Assembly: GCF_009834805.1 (NCBI RefSeq)
Contig: NZ_WVHO01000011.1
Span: 310,001-374,000, forward strand
DNA length: 64,000 bases
Origin: Saccharibacter sp. 17.LH.SD
Lineage (GTDB): Bacteria; Pseudomonadota; Alphaproteobacteria; Acetobacterales; Acetobacteraceae
Direction of reading: 5' to 3'
Made by a program: the position numbers and the translations under genes. Of this stretch, positions 4,742 to 40,507 are shown piece after piece. How positions within the stretch are numbered: position 1 is the first letter of the stretch; each line of letters starts with the position of its first letter. The notes below the pieces were generated by a model. That model saw only the letters and a program-made list of their open reading frames with translations, had not been told where the DNA came from and did not search any database.

Positions 4742-5286
4742 ATGACATCAAGCTTGTCTAATAATGGCTGCAGCAGAACGAACGATCTGATCATTCACGC
4801 TGTAGCCTCACTCTCCTTTAACTTTACCATACGCCCTTTATTCACATGTCCGCACTGCGTGATGAAACAGGCGCTTACAAAACCAACGTAAATGCTCGTC
4901 TATCGATTGCCCTGTTAGCTCTTTTCCAAAGTTAGGACCAAAGTGAGGCATTATAACTGCTGAATTGGGAATTATCTTATAACGAGTGAAATTCAAAGCA
5001 GTAGCGCTCCCTGCTGCCCTAGGACGGAGGGACCTCCACTAGGATAATAACTTAAAAAACAGCTGCACTTTTACACTCTTATAACTTACTACACCCGTAT
5101 CGAAACTAATATAAAATATAGCATTAATAATGGAACCAGGTGGAGGCGTATAAAATTCATTCGCAGTGGCAGCTGCACTCATGTTGTCTTGAAAACTCAA
5201 TATACTCCGCAAATAGACAGCTTAATACCTGCCTATTAATACACCATGAATTCTAAAAATAACTGCCAACAGAACATCTGATCAAT
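4742..5286. other. Gene-poor stretch after dnaB
   Basis: The 545 bp between dnaB and the Hint-domain gene contain no intact gene. The minus strand holds a decayed coding fragment (4838-5221, listed separately). I saw no tRNA, strong terminator or insertion-sequence end. Base composition is AT-richer than in the flanking core genes. Confidence 0.6.
4838..5221 (-). pseudogene. Decayed fragment resembling the neighbouring Hint-domain protein
   Basis: On the minus strand the frame after a stop at 5222-5224 reads through an ATG at 5182 to a TAG at 5039-5041, then continues open in the same frame to a TAA at 4838-4840. The first part includes SFQDNMSAAATANEFYTPPP and INAIFYISFDTGVV. These align in order with SFQMTLNYSGYQDYYPKGSK and VPALFFTYGNILDTGII of the intact downstream Hint protein (residues about 96-134). 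The part beyond the TAG does not resemble it. It looks like a truncated, stop-interrupted paralogue. The similarity is judged by eye and is short. Confidence 0.4.
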
Positions 5287-31481: not shown

Positions 31482-31789
31482 TTGCGCCCCTTTGTTCCAT
31501 TGCGACTATTCCTTTCTACCCAAGGCATATCAACGAATCCACTCGATTAACTTAAAAAATTTTATTAACTACCCAACATATCTGCCCCGAATTTCAACAA
31601 AAAGAAAATTTCTTCATTCTATTTTTCCCTGTTTTCTGCCTTGATTTATGTCAATAACTCCATTTTTTCGGAGTTTTTCAATGAAATTAGGGTTGCATCT
31701 TTTAGTAAAGTTATTTTGTTAAGTGACGTAACTCTCCTTAAGAGCTCTTTCTTTGGGAGATGCGCCATTCTGGCAAGGGAGGTCACATC
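31482..31789. other. Promoter region before the peroxiredoxin and cyd genes
   Basis: This 308-bp AT-rich divergent spacer contains the FNR-like box at 31641-31654 and, just after it, a 6-bp hairpin AACTCC/GGAGTT (31656-31675) followed by T's. The remainder holds no convincing ORF. A strong GGGAGG ribosome site at 31778-31783 sets the cydD start at 31790. Confidence 0.55.
31641..31654. promoter_or_regulatory. FNR/ANR-type box upstream of cydDCAB
   Basis: TTGAT-TTAT-GTCAA matches the FNR consensus TTGAT-N4-ATCAA in 9 of 10 defined positions. It lies about 136 bp before the cydD start. Oxygen-responsive control of a high-affinity oxidase operon by an FNR-class activator would make sense, but no regulator is encoded in the window. 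Confidence 0.55.
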
Positions 31790-33478
31790 ATGGCTGAGTG
31801 TCTCAGGGCACACCCACGTCCGACATTGTCAGGGCTGACAAATCGGGCCTCTCTTCCCTTAGCCTTATCCGTTACTCTAGGCGGCATAGGGGCCACCCTC
31901 CTAATTGGGCAGATGTATCTTCTGGCCACGATCGTAACGGACATCGCCTTTCGTCATCACACCCTTTATCAAGAGAAAACACTCGCTTTATTATTACTAC
32001 TCGCCGTCATGCTGCGCGCACTCTGCCAAGCGGGCGCTGATAGCTGTGGTGATCTCGCTGGGCAAAAAGCAACAGCCTCTCTGCGCCTTGAGGTCATAGA
32101 ACATCTTTTCCAGGTCGGGCCTGTCGGGCTTTCACACCAAAATAGCGGCCATATTGCGACAACCCTTTCAGAAGGGATTGACGCGCTTCAACCCTATATT
32201 GCGCGCTATATGCCGCGTGCTGCAGCCATGGTTGTCACACCACTGCTCATCATGGCTGTTGTTTTAAAGCTCGACATATGGAGCTTTCTTATCCTTGCCG
32301 TCACAGGGCCACTAATCCCTCTTTTCATGGCGCTCGTTGGCTATGGTGCACAGAGCATCATGGACCGTAAATGGACGGAACTCCTGCTCCTTGGCGCATC
32401 CTTTTTAGACATGCTTCAAGGCATCACAACGCTCCGCCTTTTCGGCCGCTCCCGCGACAGCGTCACACTCGTTGCACATATGGCGCATCAACATCGGCAA
32501 AGCACAATGGCTGTCATGCGCGTGGCTTTTCTGACTTCAGCGGTCTTAGAATTCTTTTCTAGTCTTTCTATTGCGCTTGTCGCTGTGGCTTTTGGCGCAC
32601 GGCTCCTCAATGCAAGCTTTGCCTTTCAAGATGCCTTTATTGTGCTCTTGCTTGCTCCAGAATTCTTCATGCCATTGCGTAATTTTTCAGCAAGTTACCA
32701 TGCACGGCAGAACGCAACGAGTGCTTTTAAACCCATTATCGCGTTACTAAAATTACCCGCGCTCCGTGATCTCCCACCGACAACGCGCCCTTCTCCACTC
32801 CCCAATATCTTTACCTTAGAAATCAATGATCTTAGGGCGGGATACGGAAAGGATGAGGACACCCTCAAAGGAGTTTCTGCGACCTTCCGTCCAAACGAGC
32901 TCACAGTTATTACTGGAGCAAGCGGAAGCGGAAAAAGCACCCTGTTGCGTCTTCTGTTAGGGATGATGCCCCCTCGCCAAGGGAGCTTATCCCTTCGCCT
33001 GACCAATGGCCGCACACACACGATACAAGACGCTCCCATCGGCTGGGTTCCCCAACGCCCATTTATCTTAGCCGATAGCATCTCTGCAAACTTACGGTTA
33101 GGAGCTCCGGACGCCAGCGACGAACTTCTGCAACAAATCCTTGAGGAGGTCGGATTGTGGAACACCATCACTGCACTGCCAAACAGCCTTCAAACAATCT
33201 TAGGAGAAAATGGAGCCCCTTTCTCAGCAGGGCAAATCCGCCGTTTAGCACTAGCCCGTGCTCTGCTTGGCCATCCACAAATTCTCCTTTTTGATGAGCC
33301 TACCTCAGATCTTGATGAAGAAAATGCACGCCTCGTGGCTTCATGCCTAGCCCGTACAGTGCATACAGGACGAATCAGCCTGGCGATTACGCATCGTCAC
33401 GATCTGTTAGAACAAGCGCATCATATTCTTCATCTTTCTCAAGGGCGCTTGGCTCCCATGGAAAGGAGCGCCGCATGA
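31790..33478 (+). CDS. cydD: Cysteine/glutathione ABC exporter subunit CydD
   Basis: The 562-residue half-transporter has an N-terminal six-helix membrane domain and a nucleotide-binding domain with Walker A GASGSGKSTLL, a signature FSAGQIRRLAL (Ala replacing the second Ser/Gly of LSGGQ) and Walker B ILLFDEPTSDLD. CydDC exports reductant thiols to the periplasm and is required to assemble cytochrome bd. The start at 31790 is set by GGGAGG seven nt upstream; the longer frame from 31760 is not preferred. The stop overlaps the cydC start (ATGA). Confidence 0.93.
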   Translation: MAECLRAHPRPTLSGLTNRASLPLALSVTLGGIGATLLIGQMYLLATIVTDIAFRHHTLYQEKTLALLLLLAVMLRALCQAGADSCGDLAGQKATASLRLEVIEHLFQVGPVGLSHQNSGHIATTLSEGIDALQPYIARYMPRAAAMVVTPLLIMAVVLKLDIWSFLILAVTGPLIPLFMALVGYGAQSIMDRKWTELLLLGASFLDMLQGITTLRLFGRSRDSVTLVAHMAHQHRQSTMAVMRVAFLTSAVLEFFSSLSIALVAVAFGARLLNASFAFQDAFIVLLLAPEFFMPLRNFSASYHARQNATSAFKPIIALLKLPALRDLPPTTRPSPLPNIFTLEINDLRAGYGKDEDTLKGVSATFRPNELTVITGASGSGKSTLLRLLLGMMPPRQGSLSLRLTNGRTHTIQDAPIGWVPQRPFILADSISANLRLGAPDASDELLQQILEEVGLWNTITALPNSLQTILGENGAPFSAGQIRRLALARALLGHPQILLFDEPTSDLDEENARLVASCLARTVHTGRISLAITHRHDLLEQAHHILHLSQGRLAPMERSAA

Positions 33479-35178
33479 CACAGCGTTCCCCTTCATCTTT
33501 CTCCATTCGTCCTTTCCTCTATCACGCCCGCGGTCCTTTGCTGATCGGGCTGTGCCTCTCATGTCTTGCCACATTAGCAAATTTCGGATTGCTCTTTCTC
33601 TCCGGGTGGCTCTTGGCAGGTGCTGCTGCTGCCGGTCTTGGCGGAGTCATCACCCAAAACATGTTTAATATGGGCCTCCCCGCAGTCGGCGTACGTTTCT
33701 TCGCGACTGTCCGGATCGTGGCCCGCTATGCTGAAAGGCTTGTGACGCATGACGCGGCATTTCGTGTCACAGGGCAACTCCGTACCCATAGCTTCCAAAC
33801 CCTGATTCCTCGCTCGGAAAGCTTAGCGACACGCACACGCAGCGGTGATGTCCTCACTCGTTTTGTCAATGATACAGAGAAGCTTGGGCAATTCCCCCTT
33901 GATGTGCTTCTCCCCACATTATCAGCAACATTCTGCAGCACCGTTTCTGTGGGCATCACGGCTTATTTTAGCCCAAGTGCTGCCTGTGCTTTAGCGGGAG
34001 GGCTCCTCATAGGTGGCCTTCTGCTCCCCTGGATGATCGGTCGTCTCACAGATCACCTCGCACAAGCAAATACTCAACGCAGCACTGTCCTCCACAACGA
34101 TATATTAGAGACCATCCAGGGTATGGCTGATCTTTTATGCTGTGGGGCTGCTCCACGCCAACTGGCACGCATTACAGCACACCAAACGCAGCTAAACCGC
34201 CAAACCTTCGCCCACGCATTACGCTGCAATATCATTCGGAATATATTGCCCATTCTGTCCATAGTCTGTGTCCTAAGTGTTATCGCGTGCGCAGCTCATG
34301 GGCTGGAAACCGGACAACTCAATGGACCAGAACTCCCCATGTTGGGCATGGGAGCACTCGCTTCTTTTGAAATGATAGCCCCGCTTATGGAGGCACGCCT
34401 CGCTCAAGAACGCTTCCGTCAAGCCGCTCTACGTTCAGAAGAACTTTGCTCACTTCCGGTTCTCACACCGCCACCACAAACCACCACGGCACTCCCTTCA
34501 GCAAGGGAGCTCTCTTTTGACCAAGTTTCTTTGCGGTTTCATGAGGAAAATCTCCTGAAAGATATCTCCTTTTCTCTGCAGCCAGGGGAACGTATCGCGG
34601 TTACGGGCTCGTCTGGAGCAGGGAAATCGACCCTCGCACGCTTGGCTGTACGCCTAATCGACCCTGATCAAGGTCGTATTACGTTTGGTGGCACACCGCT
34701 TACCCGTTTCACAACAGAAGATCTCTCAGAGCACATCGGGATGCTCACCCAAACGGCTCACCTCTTCCAAGGAAGCATAAAGCGCAATCTCCTTATGGCT
34801 TGCCCAACAGCGACTGACGCCCAAATACACCAAGCTCTTGTTGCCGTCGGGCTCGATGAAGAAATCAATGCTATGCCGAATGGATTAGAGACACTTTGTG
34901 GCGACCATGGAGTGAGGCTTTCAGGTGGACAGGCACGGCGCCTTTCTGCCGCGCAAATCCTACTTCGTCGTCCAACACTTCTTGTGCTGGATGAGCCTAC
35001 AGAAAGTCTTCCCCCTACCACAGGTGTGGCCCTTATGGAGGGTCTACTAACCGCTCTGCCAGAAGCAAGCGTGTTGTGCATCACACACCGGCCAGAACCT
35101 CTCTCATTCATGCACCGTATCCTGCATTTGGAATGCGGACATCTCACAGAGAAAGGAGGTGATGCTTCCCCGCACTAG
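33475..35178 (+). CDS. cydC: Cysteine/glutathione ABC exporter subunit CydC
   Basis: The 567-residue partner of CydD has a membrane domain followed by an ATPase domain: Walker A GSSGAGKSTLARL, signature LSGGQARRLSAAQ and Walker B LLVLDEPTE. The ATG at 33475 overlaps the cydD stop and has AAGGAG just before it, indicating translational coupling. The Walker B region continues ESLPPTTG, where a D-loop would be expected as LD; this is slightly unusual. A long hairpin separates it from cydA. Confidence 0.93.
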   Translation: MTQRSPSSFSIRPFLYHARGPLLIGLCLSCLATLANFGLLFLSGWLLAGAAAAGLGGVITQNMFNMGLPAVGVRFFATVRIVARYAERLVTHDAAFRVTGQLRTHSFQTLIPRSESLATRTRSGDVLTRFVNDTEKLGQFPLDVLLPTLSATFCSTVSVGITAYFSPSAACALAGGLLIGGLLLPWMIGRLTDHLAQANTQRSTVLHNDILETIQGMADLLCCGAAPRQLARITAHQTQLNRQTFAHALRCNIIRNILPILSIVCVLSVIACAAHGLETGQLNGPELPMLGMGALASFEMIAPLMEARLAQERFRQAALRSEELCSLPVLTPPPQTTTALPSARELSFDQVSLRFHEENLLKDISFSLQPGERIAVTGSSGAGKSTLARLAVRLIDPDQGRITFGGTPLTRFTTEDLSEHIGMLTQTAHLFQGSIKRNLLMACPTATDAQIHQALVAVGLDEEINAMPNGLETLCGDHGVRLSGGQARRLSAAQILLRRPTLLVLDEPTESLPPTTGVALMEGLLTALPEASVLCITHRPEPLSFMHRILHLECGHLTEKGGDASPH

Positions 35179-35307: not shown

Positions 35308-36918
35308 GTGGATCTCATCAACCCACATGTTGTTGATCTATCGCGCTTTCAATTTGCGATGACAGCACTTTACCATTTTATGTTTGTCCCACTCACACTG
35401 GGGCTTACTTTTCTTCTTGCGGCTATCGAAACCGTTTATGTCGTCACGGGCCGTGAAATTTACCGCAAGATGGCCAAGTTTTGGGGCCATCTCTTTGCCA
35501 TCAACTTTGCCCTCGGCGTCGCAACCGGGCTTACGATGGAATTTGAGTTCGGCACAAACTGGTCGATGTATTCGCACTTCTTCGGCGACCTCTTTGGCAC
35601 TCCCTTAGCCCTTGAAGGCCTCATGGCTTTCTTCATGGAATCCACATTCGTTGGTTTGTTGGTTTTCGGGTGGGATCGCCTCAGCCGTGCCTCCCATCTC
35701 GCCGTCACCTACTTGGTTGCTGCGGGATCAAACCTTTCCGCTTTGTGGATCCTGATCGCCAATGCAGGGATGAACGTCCCAGAAGGCACCCACTTCGACC
35801 CTGATACCATGCGGATGCAGTTTGATAGCTTCGTCCACCTCGTCTTCAGTGAAGATGCACAAGCGAAGTTTGTTCATACGTCCGTCGCAGGTTATGTCGC
35901 TGCTTCCATGCTTATTATGGGAATCAGCGCCTTTTATCTACTCCGCCGTCAACACCGGGAAATGGCGCTCCGCTCTTTCCGTATCGCTACCTTGTTCGGT
36001 CTCATCTCTTCTGTCGCGGTAATCACACTTGGTGACGTCCTCGGCCGGATGGATTACCAAAAACAGCCTACAAAGATCGCCGCTATTGAAGGATTGTGGC
36101 ACACATCAAAACCACCCTTTGCTCCGTGGGCTGCCTTTGCTCTCCCCGATGATGCAAAGCAGGAAAATCACCTAGAAATCGGCATCCCTTTTGTTCTAAC
36201 ACCTCTCATTACCCATAGCTTTAACCAACCTATTACGGGAATGCGTGAGCTTGAAGAACAAGCTGATCCTCATATTCGTTCAGGAATCATCGCTCTTACT
36301 GCGTTAAAGCACTATGGCGAAACGCATTCCAAACAAGACCTTGCTGATTTTCGTGCTCACGAAGACGATATGGGCTACGGCTTTCTCGCCATGCGTCACA
36401 GCCCTGGCCAAGATGTCAGTACGATCCCTGCCTCTGAGCTGGATCGCATCGTCAAACAAACACAACCAGATATTCTGCCAAATGTTTTCGTTACCTTTTG
36501 GTCCTTCCGTATCATGGTTGTTCTGGGTGGCTATTTCTTCATCTTCTTCGCGTTCACAACTCTTCTCAGCTTACGCAACAAGCTAGAAAGTAATCGTTGG
36601 ATCTTGAAGCTTGCTGTCTGGTCGATCCCTCTTCCTGTCATGGCAACCGAATTTGGGTGGATCACGGCAGAAGCAGGACGTCAGCCATGGACCGTCTTTA
36701 ACCGTCTTCCAACGTTCCTCTCCTCTTCCAGCCACACTGTGAGTTACATGACCTTCTCACTCGCAGGATTTATTCTGCTCTACAGTGTGCTGATTGTCGC
36801 CGAGTTTTACCTCATGTTCCGTTTCGCACGCCGTGGTCCCGAAACGCATGAACCTCAAGAGCAAAACTCCCAAGACAGCGTTGTTTCTAATCTAAACATC
36901 GTCCAGGGAGGTCATTAA
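35308..36918 (+). CDS. cydA: Cytochrome bd quinol oxidase subunit I
   Basis: The 536-residue haem-bearing subunit oxidises quinol and reduces O2 in the inner membrane. Ligands are visible: H23 (ALYHFMF), H190 (AKFVHTSVAGY), M403 (RIMVVLGG), and the proton-path glutamates E103 and E111 (ALEGLMAFFMES). The Q-loop pair K256/E261 (TKIAAIEG) corresponds to E. coli K252/E257. Length and the long Q loop indicate the long-loop (E. coli-like) type. The start is GTG at 35308 with AGGAGG five nt upstream. cydB follows after 2 nt. Confidence 0.97.
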   Translation: MDLINPHVVDLSRFQFAMTALYHFMFVPLTLGLTFLLAAIETVYVVTGREIYRKMAKFWGHLFAINFALGVATGLTMEFEFGTNWSMYSHFFGDLFGTPLALEGLMAFFMESTFVGLLVFGWDRLSRASHLAVTYLVAAGSNLSALWILIANAGMNVPEGTHFDPDTMRMQFDSFVHLVFSEDAQAKFVHTSVAGYVAASMLIMGISAFYLLRRQHREMALRSFRIATLFGLISSVAVITLGDVLGRMDYQKQPTKIAAIEGLWHTSKPPFAPWAAFALPDDAKQENHLEIGIPFVLTPLITHSFNQPITGMRELEEQADPHIRSGIIALTALKHYGETHSKQDLADFRAHEDDMGYGFLAMRHSPGQDVSTIPASELDRIVKQTQPDILPNVFVTFWSFRIMVVLGGYFFIFFAFTTLLSLRNKLESNRWILKLAVWSIPLPVMATEFGWITAEAGRQPWTVFNRLPTFLSSSSHTVSYMTFSLAGFILLYSVLIVAEFYLMFRFARRGPETHEPQEQNSQDSVVSNLNIVQGGH

Positions 36919-36920
36919 TC

Positions 36921-38060
36921 ATGACCGTTTATATCGTTCTTAAGCTGATCTGGACCGGCCTTTTAGGAGTCCTCCTAACAGGGCTTGGCCTCATGGTGGG
37001 AATGGATATGGGGGTCGGCACGCTCCTCCGTTTTATCGGACGTGATGATGCTGAACGCCGTACCATGCTCAATATTATTGGCCCCCATTGGGACGGAAAC
37101 CAGGTATGGTTCGTTTTAGGAGGCGGCGCGATTTTTGCCGCGTTCCCCTCCCTTTACGGCACCTCCTTCTCTGTCTTTTATGTCGTGATGATCCTGCTTC
37201 TCTTCAGCATGATCTTACGCCCTGCGGCTTTCGAGTTTCGCTCTAAAGTCAGCAACAAATATTGGCGCTCAAGCTGGGATGTTGCCTTTTTAATTTCTGG
37301 CTTCGTCCCCATGTTCGCCTACGGCGTAACCATTGGGAATATCTTAGAAGGCGTTGGGTATCACTTCCTCTGGACAGGCCAATATATCCAAGATGAAAAC
37401 TTCCTGAGCTATCTCATAAACCCTTTCGCTATTCTGTGTGGCCTTATGAGTGTTGCTCTCAGCGTACAACAAGCAGGGTCTATGCTAATGCTTCGCGCTG
37501 AAGAACCACTTTATAGCCGGGCCAAGAATTATGCCTCACCTGGAGGAATAATCGCGGCAATTCTGTTCGTTATCGGTGGCGTCTGGATCCAGTTTATCAA
37601 AGGCTTTGCACTTACAGCACCTGTTGATTATAACATGCCGGCAAACCCACTTCATGGGCAAAGTGTCGTCATGCGCGAAGGTGCCTGGATGGATAATTTC
37701 CATGCCCATCCTGTCCTCTGGATCCTCCCAGCAATTGGCGTATTCTGCATGATTGCAAGCTCTGTTCTCCTTCGCCTCGACCGTGCTGGCCTGGCTTGGT
37801 GGTTAGGAGCAGGCTCCTGGTTCGGAACTATCGCCACAGTTGGTGCGGCAATGTTCCCCTTCCTTATGCCATCCTCCACACGCCCTGACCAAAGCCTCAG
37901 CACTTGGAATGCGACAGGAAGTGAATACGGGCTTATTTGCATGCTCGTCGCGACATCCATCTTCATGCCTATCATCATTTGCTATACGGCGTGGTGCTAT
38001 CACGTCATGCGCGGCAAGGTCAGTGTCCGCGATGTTCTCAACAGTCATGATAGCTATTAG
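36921..38060 (+). CDS. cydB: Cytochrome bd quinol oxidase subunit II
   Basis: The 379-residue membrane partner of CydA contains LTGLGLMVGMDMGVGTLL near the start, GPHWDGNQVWFVLGGGAIFAAFP (with the conserved WDGNQVW) and RPAAFEFRSK. It stabilises the haem d site and, in E. coli-like enzymes, pairs structurally with CydA. It is placed directly between cydA and the cydX-like gene, 15 nt before the latter. Confidence 0.97.
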   Translation: MTVYIVLKLIWTGLLGVLLTGLGLMVGMDMGVGTLLRFIGRDDAERRTMLNIIGPHWDGNQVWFVLGGGAIFAAFPSLYGTSFSVFYVVMILLLFSMILRPAAFEFRSKVSNKYWRSSWDVAFLISGFVPMFAYGVTIGNILEGVGYHFLWTGQYIQDENFLSYLINPFAILCGLMSVALSVQQAGSMLMLRAEEPLYSRAKNYASPGGIIAAILFVIGGVWIQFIKGFALTAPVDYNMPANPLHGQSVVMREGAWMDNFHAHPVLWILPAIGVFCMIASSVLLRLDRAGLAWWLGAGSWFGTIATVGAAMFPFLMPSSTRPDQSLSTWNATGSEYGLICMLVATSIFMPIIICYTAWCYHVMRGKVSVRDVLNSHDSY

Positions 38061-38075
38061 AGGGGAGATCGTCTT

Positions 38076-38294
38076 ATGCCTCGTTATCTATCCACATTGC
38101 TAAAGCTAGCGGGTCTCGCACTTGCACTCGTCATAGCTCTTCTTTTCGCTGTATTCGTTGGCGACCAAGGCCCATGGTACTTTGCTTGGGTGATCGGCAC
38201 AGTCATGATCATTCTCATTTCGGCATCAGGCGCCGCTCTTTTCGACGCTCAAGAGCAACGTAACAATCTTCTCAACAAGGAGAACCAGTCATGA
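38076..38294 (+). CDS. CydX-like small subunit with an extra N-terminal helix
   Basis: The 72-residue protein has two predicted membrane helices. The second begins WYFAWVIGT (residues 34-42), matching the CydX opening WYFAWILGT at 7 of 9 positions, then continues as a helix with a charged tail (FDAQEQRNN). Ordinary CydX proteins are 30-40 residues and begin with that motif. Here it is preceded by LLKLAGLALALVIALLFAVFVGDQG, a first helix. It sits 15 nt after cydB, as cydX does in Proteobacteria. It is likely an accessory subunit of the bd oxidase; the fusion is inferred. Confidence 0.8.
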   Translation: MPRYLSTLLKLAGLALALVIALLFAVFVGDQGPWYFAWVIGTVMIILISASGAALFDAQEQRNNLLNKENQS

Positions 38295-38389
38295 TGGGTG
38301 ACCTTGAAGGAATTATCTTCTTTATTCCTTTTGTTTATATGGCCATTTACTTAACAGCTGCTTTTATTATGAAGCGTCTTGAGCCTTAA
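38291..38389 (+). CDS. 32-residue single-helix membrane protein of the cyd operon
   Basis: The sequence starts MMGDLEGIIFFIPFVYMAIY and continues LTAAFIMKRLEP. It has one hydrophobic helix and charged ends. The ATG at 38291 overlaps the stop of the CydX-like gene (ATGA), and AAGGAG lies eight nt upstream, so translation is well supported. It is the last gene before the operon terminator. It does not match CydX, YbgE or CydH as I know them. A small accessory subunit of the oxidase is plausible. Confidence 0.7.
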   Translation: MMGDLEGIIFFIPFVYMAIYLTAAFIMKRLEP

Positions 38390-38408: not shown

Positions 38409-38433
38409 AAAGCCGTCCAAAACGGACGGCTTT
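38409..38433 (+). terminator. Terminator of the cyd operon
   Basis: AAAGCCGTCC (38409-38418) pairs with GGACGGCTTT (38424-38433) around a 5-nt loop, 20 nt after the last small gene. Confidence 0.8.
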
Positions 38434-38522: not shown

Positions 38523-39437
38523 ATGACTCCTCTCCCCCGACAGTACCTGTCTGGCTTATTGGCCGTCATTTGTGCTTCTATCATCTGGGGAAGTATCGGC
38601 ATCGCTGCCAACATGGCATCACAGGTTGCACCAATGACGATGGGTGCTGCGGCCATGGCAGGAGGAGGGTTTTTACAAGCCATAAGTGCGGTATCTTCTA
38701 TTCAACGATCCCTTTCCAATCTCCGTCCTTTATGGGGCTATGTGCTCCTCGGCGGTCTCGCCGTCGCTATTGATCCACTCGCCTTTTACACATCAATGCA
38801 TCTTGCCGGTGTTGCCGCCAGTACAGTAGTCGCCCTTGGCTCAGCCCCACTTTTCTCAGCCGTCATTGATACGGTAATGGACCGCTCCAAATTAGGCATC
38901 AGATGGGGTGTAAGCGCCTTTCTCGGTATTGCGGGAATCACAGCGCTTAGTTTTGCTGAAACACATGGTGCTCATCAAACCGCCCCTGCGCCACTCCTCG
39001 GGATTTTTCTTGCTCTCATTATGGGGTTTACGTACGCCTTTTATTCATGGGCTGCTCACCGCTTAATGCATCGTCATATTCCCGCGCGAGCCGCTATGGG
39101 CAGTATCTTCGGCGTTGGAGCCCTCTTCCTTACACCTTTTCTTATCATAACGGGGGGCGCTCTTCTCCACCCATGGCATAATATTGCTGTCAGCCTTTAT
39201 CTCGCCGTTATCCCTATGTTTTGCGGTTTTACACTTTTTGGCTATGGGCTCCGCTTCTTGCCGGCCAGTATCGCAACGACAATCACATTACTTGAACCAA
39301 CAATCGCCGCTATTTTAGCAACCACACTCCTGGGAGAGCATCTCTCTCTAACGGGATGGCTTGGAATTGTCACGATCATGGCGAGCCTCCTCTGCGTCAC
39401 ATGGCCAGGGAAAAGTGCTGTTACCGAACGTGACTAA
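38523..39437 (+). CDS. EamA/DMT superfamily transporter, copy 1
   Basis: The 304-residue protein has about ten hydrophobic helices in two EamA repeats. Family wording includes SIIWGSIGIAANMASQVAPMTMGAAAMAGGG at the start and FGYGLRFLPASIATTITLLEPTIAAILATTLLGE in the second repeat. DMT proteins export or import metabolites; substrate cannot be predicted. A tandem paralogue follows at 39587 with the same segments (ASTATTITLLEPTVAAILAV). Confidence 0.88.
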   Translation: MTPLPRQYLSGLLAVICASIIWGSIGIAANMASQVAPMTMGAAAMAGGGFLQAISAVSSIQRSLSNLRPLWGYVLLGGLAVAIDPLAFYTSMHLAGVAASTVVALGSAPLFSAVIDTVMDRSKLGIRWGVSAFLGIAGITALSFAETHGAHQTAPAPLLGIFLALIMGFTYAFYSWAAHRLMHRHIPARAAMGSIFGVGALFLTPFLIITGGALLHPWHNIAVSLYLAVIPMFCGFTLFGYGLRFLPASIATTITLLEPTIAAILATTLLGEHLSLTGWLGIVTIMASLLCVTWPGKSAVTERD

Positions 39438-39586: not shown

Positions 39587-40507
39587 ATGTCAGAATCCTC
39601 TAAAGAAACCGTTTTCGGCTTAATCAGTATCACTCTTGCCGCAATTCTTTGGGGGACTACGGGCGTAGCCGCCAGCTTCGCCCCCCAAATATCTGCCATC
39701 ACGATGGGGGCCATCGCCATGGGAGGTGGAGGCCTTTTACAAGCAATCCGCGCCGCGCCATTTTTTAAAAAATCATTGCCTGCCCTCAAAAAGCAATGGC
39801 CGATCACACTCCTGGGTGGAATCGCGGTGATGGTTTACCCTTTGGCCTTCTATAGCTCTATGCGTTTAGCCGGTATTACCGTTGGAACCGTCATCTCAAT
39901 GGGGTCAGCGCCTCTCTTTGCGGCCATTGTGGATATGGTCATGGATGGGGTCCGCCCCTCTAAGCGCTGGGGCATTAGTACCTCTCTCGGTATTCTGGGT
40001 ATTGCTCTGCTCAGTTTTGCTGAAAGCTTTACCCACTCCCAGCCCACAGCCACGACAGCTCCAGCCCCGCTCGTCGGAATCCTCATAGGGCTTATTGCTG
40101 GCTTTACATATTCTTTTTACTCATGGGCAGCACGTCACCTCATGCATCATGCTATTTTGCCACGGGCTGCAATGGGAAGTATTTTTGGGGTTGGCAGCCT
40201 CTTCCTCCTGCCCATTATCCTTACAACCGGTAAAAGCCTCTTTTACTCTTGGAATAATGTGTTTGTAGGATGCTATATGATCCTCATCCCCATGTTCTTA
40301 GGCTATCTCTGCTTTGGTTACGGCCTCGCACGCGTTCCTGCCAGCACAGCCACCACCATCACCCTACTAGAACCCACCGTAGCCGCTATATTAGCTGTGC
40401 TTATCGTCGGGGAGCGCCTTCCTCTCGCTGGCTGGAGTGGAATCGCACTTATCATGGCCAGTCTCATCTGCATCACATGGCCTCGAAAACGCTTAAAACA
40501 CCCTTAA
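39587..40507 (+). CDS. EamA/DMT superfamily transporter, copy 2
   Basis: This 306-residue tandem paralogue of the 38523 gene has ILWGTTGVAASFAPQISAITMGAIAMGGGGLLQAI in the first repeat and FGYGLARVPASTATTITLLEPTVAAILAVLIVGE in the second. The two probably arose by duplication and diverged moderately. It converges with the permease gene at 40513 with only 5 nt between stop codons. Substrate unknown. Confidence 0.88.
   Translation: MSESSKETVFGLISITLAAILWGTTGVAASFAPQISAITMGAIAMGGGGLLQAIRAAPFFKKSLPALKKQWPITLLGGIAVMVYPLAFYSSMRLAGITVGTVISMGSAPLFAAIVDMVMDGVRPSKRWGISTSLGILGIALLSFAESFTHSQPTATTAPAPLVGILIGLIAGFTYSFYSWAARHLMHHAILPRAAMGSIFGVGSLFLLPIILTTGKSLFYSWNNVFVGCYMILIPMFLGYLCFGYGLARVPASTATTITLLEPTVAAILAVLIVGERLPLAGWSGIALIMASLICITWPRKRLKHP

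Follow-up and report, generated by a model that had tools for sequence, protein, structure and literature searches.

What is encoded at the end of the cyd operon of Saccharibacter sp. 17.LH.SD, and how does it relate to the bd oxidase? The window, meaning the whole stretch of 64,000 nucleotides analysed here (positions 310,001–374,000 of contig NZ_WVHO01000011.1, from a host genome assembly of 2.1 Mb), contains cydD-cydC-cydA-cydB-cydX in this order, followed by a second small gene. A preliminary description of this DNA drew attention to a 72-residue gene after cydB with a CydX-like motif behind an extra transmembrane helix, and overlooked the second small open reading frame at 38291–38389. 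The operon quite probably ends in two overlapping genes for small membrane proteins, the first encoding a two-helix CydX and the second, of 32 residues, what would be another small subunit of this bd oxidase or a factor in its assembly. Carrying this reading are homology to CydX, co-occurrence restricted to one clade, position in the operon, ribosome-binding sites and purifying selection. The features at the end of the operon are as follows.

38061–38067, + strand: AGGGGAG, Shine-Dalgarno-like site of cydX (from the sequence)
38076–38294, + strand: two-helix CydX, 72 residues (profile match to E. coli CydX; CydX motif; form described before in PMC4325964 and PMC5322542)
38094–38162, + strand: CydX helix added at the N terminus, about residues 7–29 (hydropathy maximum; AlphaFold2 helix 3–31)
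38175–38246, + strand: CydX core, W34 to the acidic D57 (YxxWxxGx15[ED]; motif kept in 76 of 76 distinct relatives)
38277–38282, + strand: AAGGAG, Shine-Dalgarno site of the second small gene (from the sequence; almost every relative has a comparable site ahead of the gene)
38291–38389, + strand: second small gene, 32 residues, MMGDLEGIIFFIPFVYMAIYLTAAFIMKRLEP (conserved at 75 of 80 loci and in all 32 Acetobacteraceae genomes with two-helix CydX; ratio of nonsynonymous to synonymous differences per site, pN/pS, 0.10)

The 72-residue protein is a CydX

Starting 15 nucleotides past the cydB stop, behind AGGGGAG, is the open reading frame at 38076–38294 (+ strand), whose translation is MPRYLSTLLKLAGLALALVIALLFAVFVGDQGPWYFAWVIGTVMIILISASGAALFDAQEQRNNLLNKENQS (72 residues). 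WYFAWVIGT occupies residues 34–42, after a full hydrophobic segment; translation, hydropathy and AlphaFold2 all bear out the preliminary description on this point.

The search against CydX hidden Markov models suggested there gave a divided answer. As a single sequence the protein scores below the curated cut-offs (14.6 bits against 26.2 for PF08173, 16.2 bits against 31.6 for TIGR02106), but a profile of its family overturns that result. Searched against the whole PDB, a profile built from 36 relatives has E. coli CydX as its top match (6rko_X, E = 0.0023, CydX residues 2–31), and hhalign pairs the two-helix family profile with E. coli CydX at 95.9% probability (E = 5.7e-9, 29 columns), so the proposed resemblance to CydX is real. 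The two-helix profile also finds ordinary one-helix CydX in 12 other genomes, via its CydX half only; a search of a plasmid collection with CydX returned a weak match in Thioclava and nothing else. The published CydX signature at the helix start, YxxWxxGx15[E/D] (PMC4325964), is kept in all 76 distinct relatives and comprises Y35, W38, G41 and D57 in the window protein. With E. coli CydX recovered by the family profile and the signature universal among the relatives, sequence comparison identifies the 72-residue protein as a genuine CydX homologue.

With E. coli bd-I CydX (YbgT; PF08173, TIGR02106) it shares the W34–D57 core, the signature and the position after cydB; what sets it apart are about 30 additional N-terminal residues that form a further helix, and its own scores under the curated cut-offs. 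The typical CydX, which copurifies with CydAB and is required for heme assembly, is a single transmembrane helix of about 37 residues, whereas the window protein has two helices and 72 residues. The one-helix form is typical and not required, since published CydX proteins include two-helix forms (PMC4325964, PMC5322542), and the statement that the CydX subunits known so far begin with the motif and have half this length is outdated. A CydX lengthened at its N terminus by a second hydrophobic helix was described by Allen et al. in 2014 for a clade including Acetobacter pasteurianus, Acidiphilium and Acidithiobacillus (PMC4325964). In 2015 Degli Esposti et al. described a two-transmembrane CydX in acetic acid bacteria (PMC5322542). 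The extra helix proposed for this locus is thus supported, and it is already known, not new. Architecture and taxa (Acetobacter, Acidiphilium, Acidithiobacillus) are shared with the ‘grey clade’ CydX of the former and the two-transmembrane CydX of the latter; there is no substantial difference, and the window protein is a Saccharibacter-like member of this group.

Predicted orientation of the CydX hairpin

Hydropathy and AlphaFold2 place the two CydX helices at residues 3–31 and 33–71 (mean predicted local distance difference test score, pLDDT, 89). The turn between them has about five residues in all 76 relatives (VGDQGP, AGDYGP and similar) and is mostly acidic, and the loop ahead of the tryptophan has a net charge of −1.0. 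The first nine residues carry a mean net charge of +1.2, with lysine or arginine within the first ten in every relative. Membrane proteins tend to be oriented with positive charge inside, and by this positive-inside rule both ends of CydX are predicted to be cytoplasmic. The chain would begin in the cytoplasm, cross the membrane once, turn at GDQGP in the periplasm and return as the CydX helix.

This orientation agrees with cryo-electron microscopy of the E. coli enzyme, in which CydX packs on CydA helices 1, 5 and 6 with its C terminus in the cytoplasm (PMC6853902), and disagrees with earlier predictions that put the C terminus in the periplasm (PMC4325964, PMC5322542). The usual CydX helix would clamp CydA helices 1, 5 and 6, preceded here by one more helix. 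As the chain turns back through a short periplasmic loop, the extra helix must sit beside CydX, either on its outer face or toward the CydA flank. A position on the outer CydX face, which in bd-II is the face of the AppX dimer contacts (PMC8585947), is plausible.

A second small gene follows cydX

The ATG of the second small gene overlaps the TGA of cydX as ATGA, and the two genes are probably translationally coupled. The encoded 32-residue protein has a single helix, an acidic N terminus and a basic C terminus. First noticed beside cydX in four related genomes, the gene is present at 75 of the 80 named loci with two-helix CydX; its distance from the cydX stop ranges from −4 to +49 nucleotides, is mostly +2 and nearly always at most 20, and Shine-Dalgarno-like sites are present. 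Of 249 Acetobacteraceae genomes, 32 contain two-helix CydX, and every one of these also contains the 32-residue gene (32 of 32). Among the remaining 217 there is a single further match, a degraded copy in genome G610 (L152, contig C151, about 4879–4956, − strand). This copy has no start codon, no cydX and a change at the invariant proline, adjoins unrelated sequence at the contig end, and looks like a remnant of a cyd operon since lost. Phylum-wide, among 398 genomes, the gene accompanies two-helix CydX in 4 of 5 genomes and short CydX in 0 of 12. Six two-helix operons lack it: two from Luteibacter, two from proteobacterial metagenome-assembled genomes, one from genome G369 and one from a Gallionella metagenome-assembled genome (L097).

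M1, E6 and P13 of the small protein are invariant, L5, I9, Y16 and A23 are conserved to at least 90%, and the tail is basic. In 15 independent close pairs, with the codons overlapping cydX excluded, we counted 69 differences, 53 of them synonymous and 16 nonsynonymous (pN/pS 0.10, p = 7e-19), with 52 of the 69 at codon position 3. When all pairs were used, saturated ones included, an earlier calculation yielded 0.39, a weaker signal; we rely on the close-pair test. These comparisons are strong evidence that the frame is translated into a constrained protein.

Some copies depart from the common form. In two Gluconacetobacter species (L024, L025) the second protein has 38 residues, with a C-terminal extension ending QRPPSGP. 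In one 1.9 Mb genome (G031; L006/L015/L149) the two-helix CydX has diverged strongly (35% identity), CydB has a long branch, and the second frame is shortened and starts MFEYVVFAIP.

Relation to known small subunits

No Pfam or NCBIfam family matches the 32-residue protein above noise, no PDB chain matched it, and it has no match in the plasmid collection. None of 50 members of its family matches the CydH model NF033411, hhalign gives the family and CydH a probability of 0.2%, and PF10617 (CydZ/DUF2474) does not match the family. The second frame was therefore rejected as a homologue of CydH, CydZ, CydX or YbgE, as there were no matches. The host genome contains no YnhF-family gene above the NF033411 cut-off.

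Like CydH/CydY (YnhF), the fourth subunit of E. coli bd-I, the protein has about 30 residues and a single helix; the two have no sequence similarity, and ynhF lies outside the cyd operon, whereas the 32-residue gene ends it. CydZ (DUF2474, PF10617) and the CydY of Allen et al. (2014) are likewise small single-helix proteins encoded after cydB, but in operons without cydX, whereas here CydX lies upstream of the 32-residue gene. From that CydY, found in epsilon- and deltaproteobacterial operons with a long Q-loop and no cydX, the 32-residue gene is set apart by operon context alone. A search of the openly accessible literature found no description of the protein. The screen of Allen et al. yielded further unreported hydrophobic small proteins near cydAB (PMC4325964), given which the gene may have been seen by others.

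Order of acquisition

In a CydB tree, made by a quick method that gave long-branch warnings and without the Gallionella locus L097, which contains no CydB, a single branch separates all two-helix operons from the short-CydX operons. All 75 carriers of the 32-residue gene form one clade (Shimodaira–Hasegawa-like approximate likelihood-ratio support 100), outside which lie the two-helix operons without it (two Luteibacter, two proteobacterial metagenome-assembled genomes and G369). On the simplest reading, the first helix was acquired first and the 32-residue gene was then gained once; alternatively, the gene may have been lost at the base. The preliminary description spoke of a fusion, a notion that is unneeded with all two-helix forms on one side of a CydB branch; no evidence of gene fusion as their origin was found, and no systematic search for it was made.

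Possible roles of the second protein and of the added helix

Judged from gene content and sequence, the 32-residue protein is likely to be an additional small subunit of the oxidase clade with two-helix CydX. We infer that it would belong to the complex, with its acidic N terminus outside and its basic C terminus inside, and that it may stabilise the enzyme or shield heme. We also somewhat favour a fuller account, in which it is an unnamed, operon-encoded subunit that the bd oxidases of acetic acid bacteria and acidophiles gained on one occasion, in the lineage with two-helix CydX; the enzyme would then have an enlarged set of CydA, CydB, two-helix CydX and the 32-residue protein, which, though unrelated to CydH in sequence, possibly occupies the CydH groove. 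Several points weigh against an additional subunit beside a two-helix CydX: the 32-residue protein is known here from gene sequences alone; six operons lack it, and the gene is therefore not obligatory for two-helix CydX; co-occurrence could reflect inheritance of the operon, with a role near the oxidase rather than in it; and the predicted CydX hairpin has a template modelling score (pTM) of only 0.49.

One possible, if doubtful, specific role is to replace CydH functionally, as a fourth subunit that is encoded in the operon and shields heme b595. The protein is close to CydH in size (32 against 29 residues), has one helix and is encoded with CydAB and CydX in a genome without CydH; on the other hand, it shows no similarity to CydH by hhalign or NF033411, other sites are equally possible, and the E. 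coli bd-II and mycobacterial enzymes function with the groove unfilled.

The added CydX helix, for its part, might cover the lipid-facing side of CydX and prevent or alter dimer contacts like those of AppX in E. coli bd-II, a proposal that we regard as tentative. A tethered helix necessarily lies beside CydX, and AppX is the main dimer contact in bd-II, but according to the same authors the bd-II dimer is possibly an effect of amphipol (PMC8585947).

The second frame is rather unlikely to encode a regulator, or a factor for assembly or maturation, in place of a resident subunit. Small membrane proteins can act transiently, and the protein's being known from genes alone would fit such a part, but a subunit is favoured by its strict link to one oxidase clade across alpha- and gammaproteobacteria and by the presence of a single such gene in each cyd operon.

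Very improbable is the position proposed in the preliminary description, with the extra CydX helix seated in the CydH/YnhF groove of CydA, where it would block the entry of oxygen near heme b595. With no NF033411 match above the cut-off in the genome the groove may need another filler, but CydH, which binds the cleft between CydA helices 1 and 9, and CydX lie on opposite sides of CydA and the interhelix link is about five residues throughout the relatives; for this reason the placement was rejected on geometry. That the second frame is open by chance, as its mere 32 codons and lack of any library match might suggest, can be dismissed, being refuted by the close-pair test and by conservation at 75 of 80 loci.

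The rest of the operon and its surroundings

Upstream and downstream of the two small genes are the following features.

31760–33478, + strand: cydD, ABC exporter subunit (TIGR02857, 507.9 bits, cut-off 435)
33343–35178, + strand: cydC (TIGR02868, 404.8 bits, cut-off 329)
35308–36918, + strand: cydA, GTG start (PF01654, E = 6e-158, whole profile covered)
36921–38060, + strand: cydB (TIGR00203, 369 bits, cut-off 117)
38409–38433, + strand: hairpin 3′ of the 32-residue gene (RNA fold −17.2 kcal/mol, z −6.1)

The real start of cydC is probably more internal than these coordinates. The hairpin is probably the terminator that closes the cyd operon; its T run is short, hence it is no textbook intrinsic terminator on the + strand. 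Beside the operon are tandem genes at 38523–39437 and 39587–40507 (+ strand), a local duplication encoding similar membrane proteins of about 305 residues that are 55% identical to each other and that, we presume, resemble EamA-type transporters.

Significance

The new part of this locus is the 32-residue neighbour, conserved and apparently undescribed, and not the two-helix CydX. It can be studied in well-grown industrial bacteria (Acetobacter, Gluconobacter and Komagataeibacter), and heterologous expression of the oxidase from a construct that stops 99 bases short of the operon's end may lose a subunit. If resident in the complex, the protein would be one more single-helix protein on a bd oxidase; it would provide a test of whether unrelated proteins fill the CydH groove across lineages, and would bear on the route of oxygen to the hemes.
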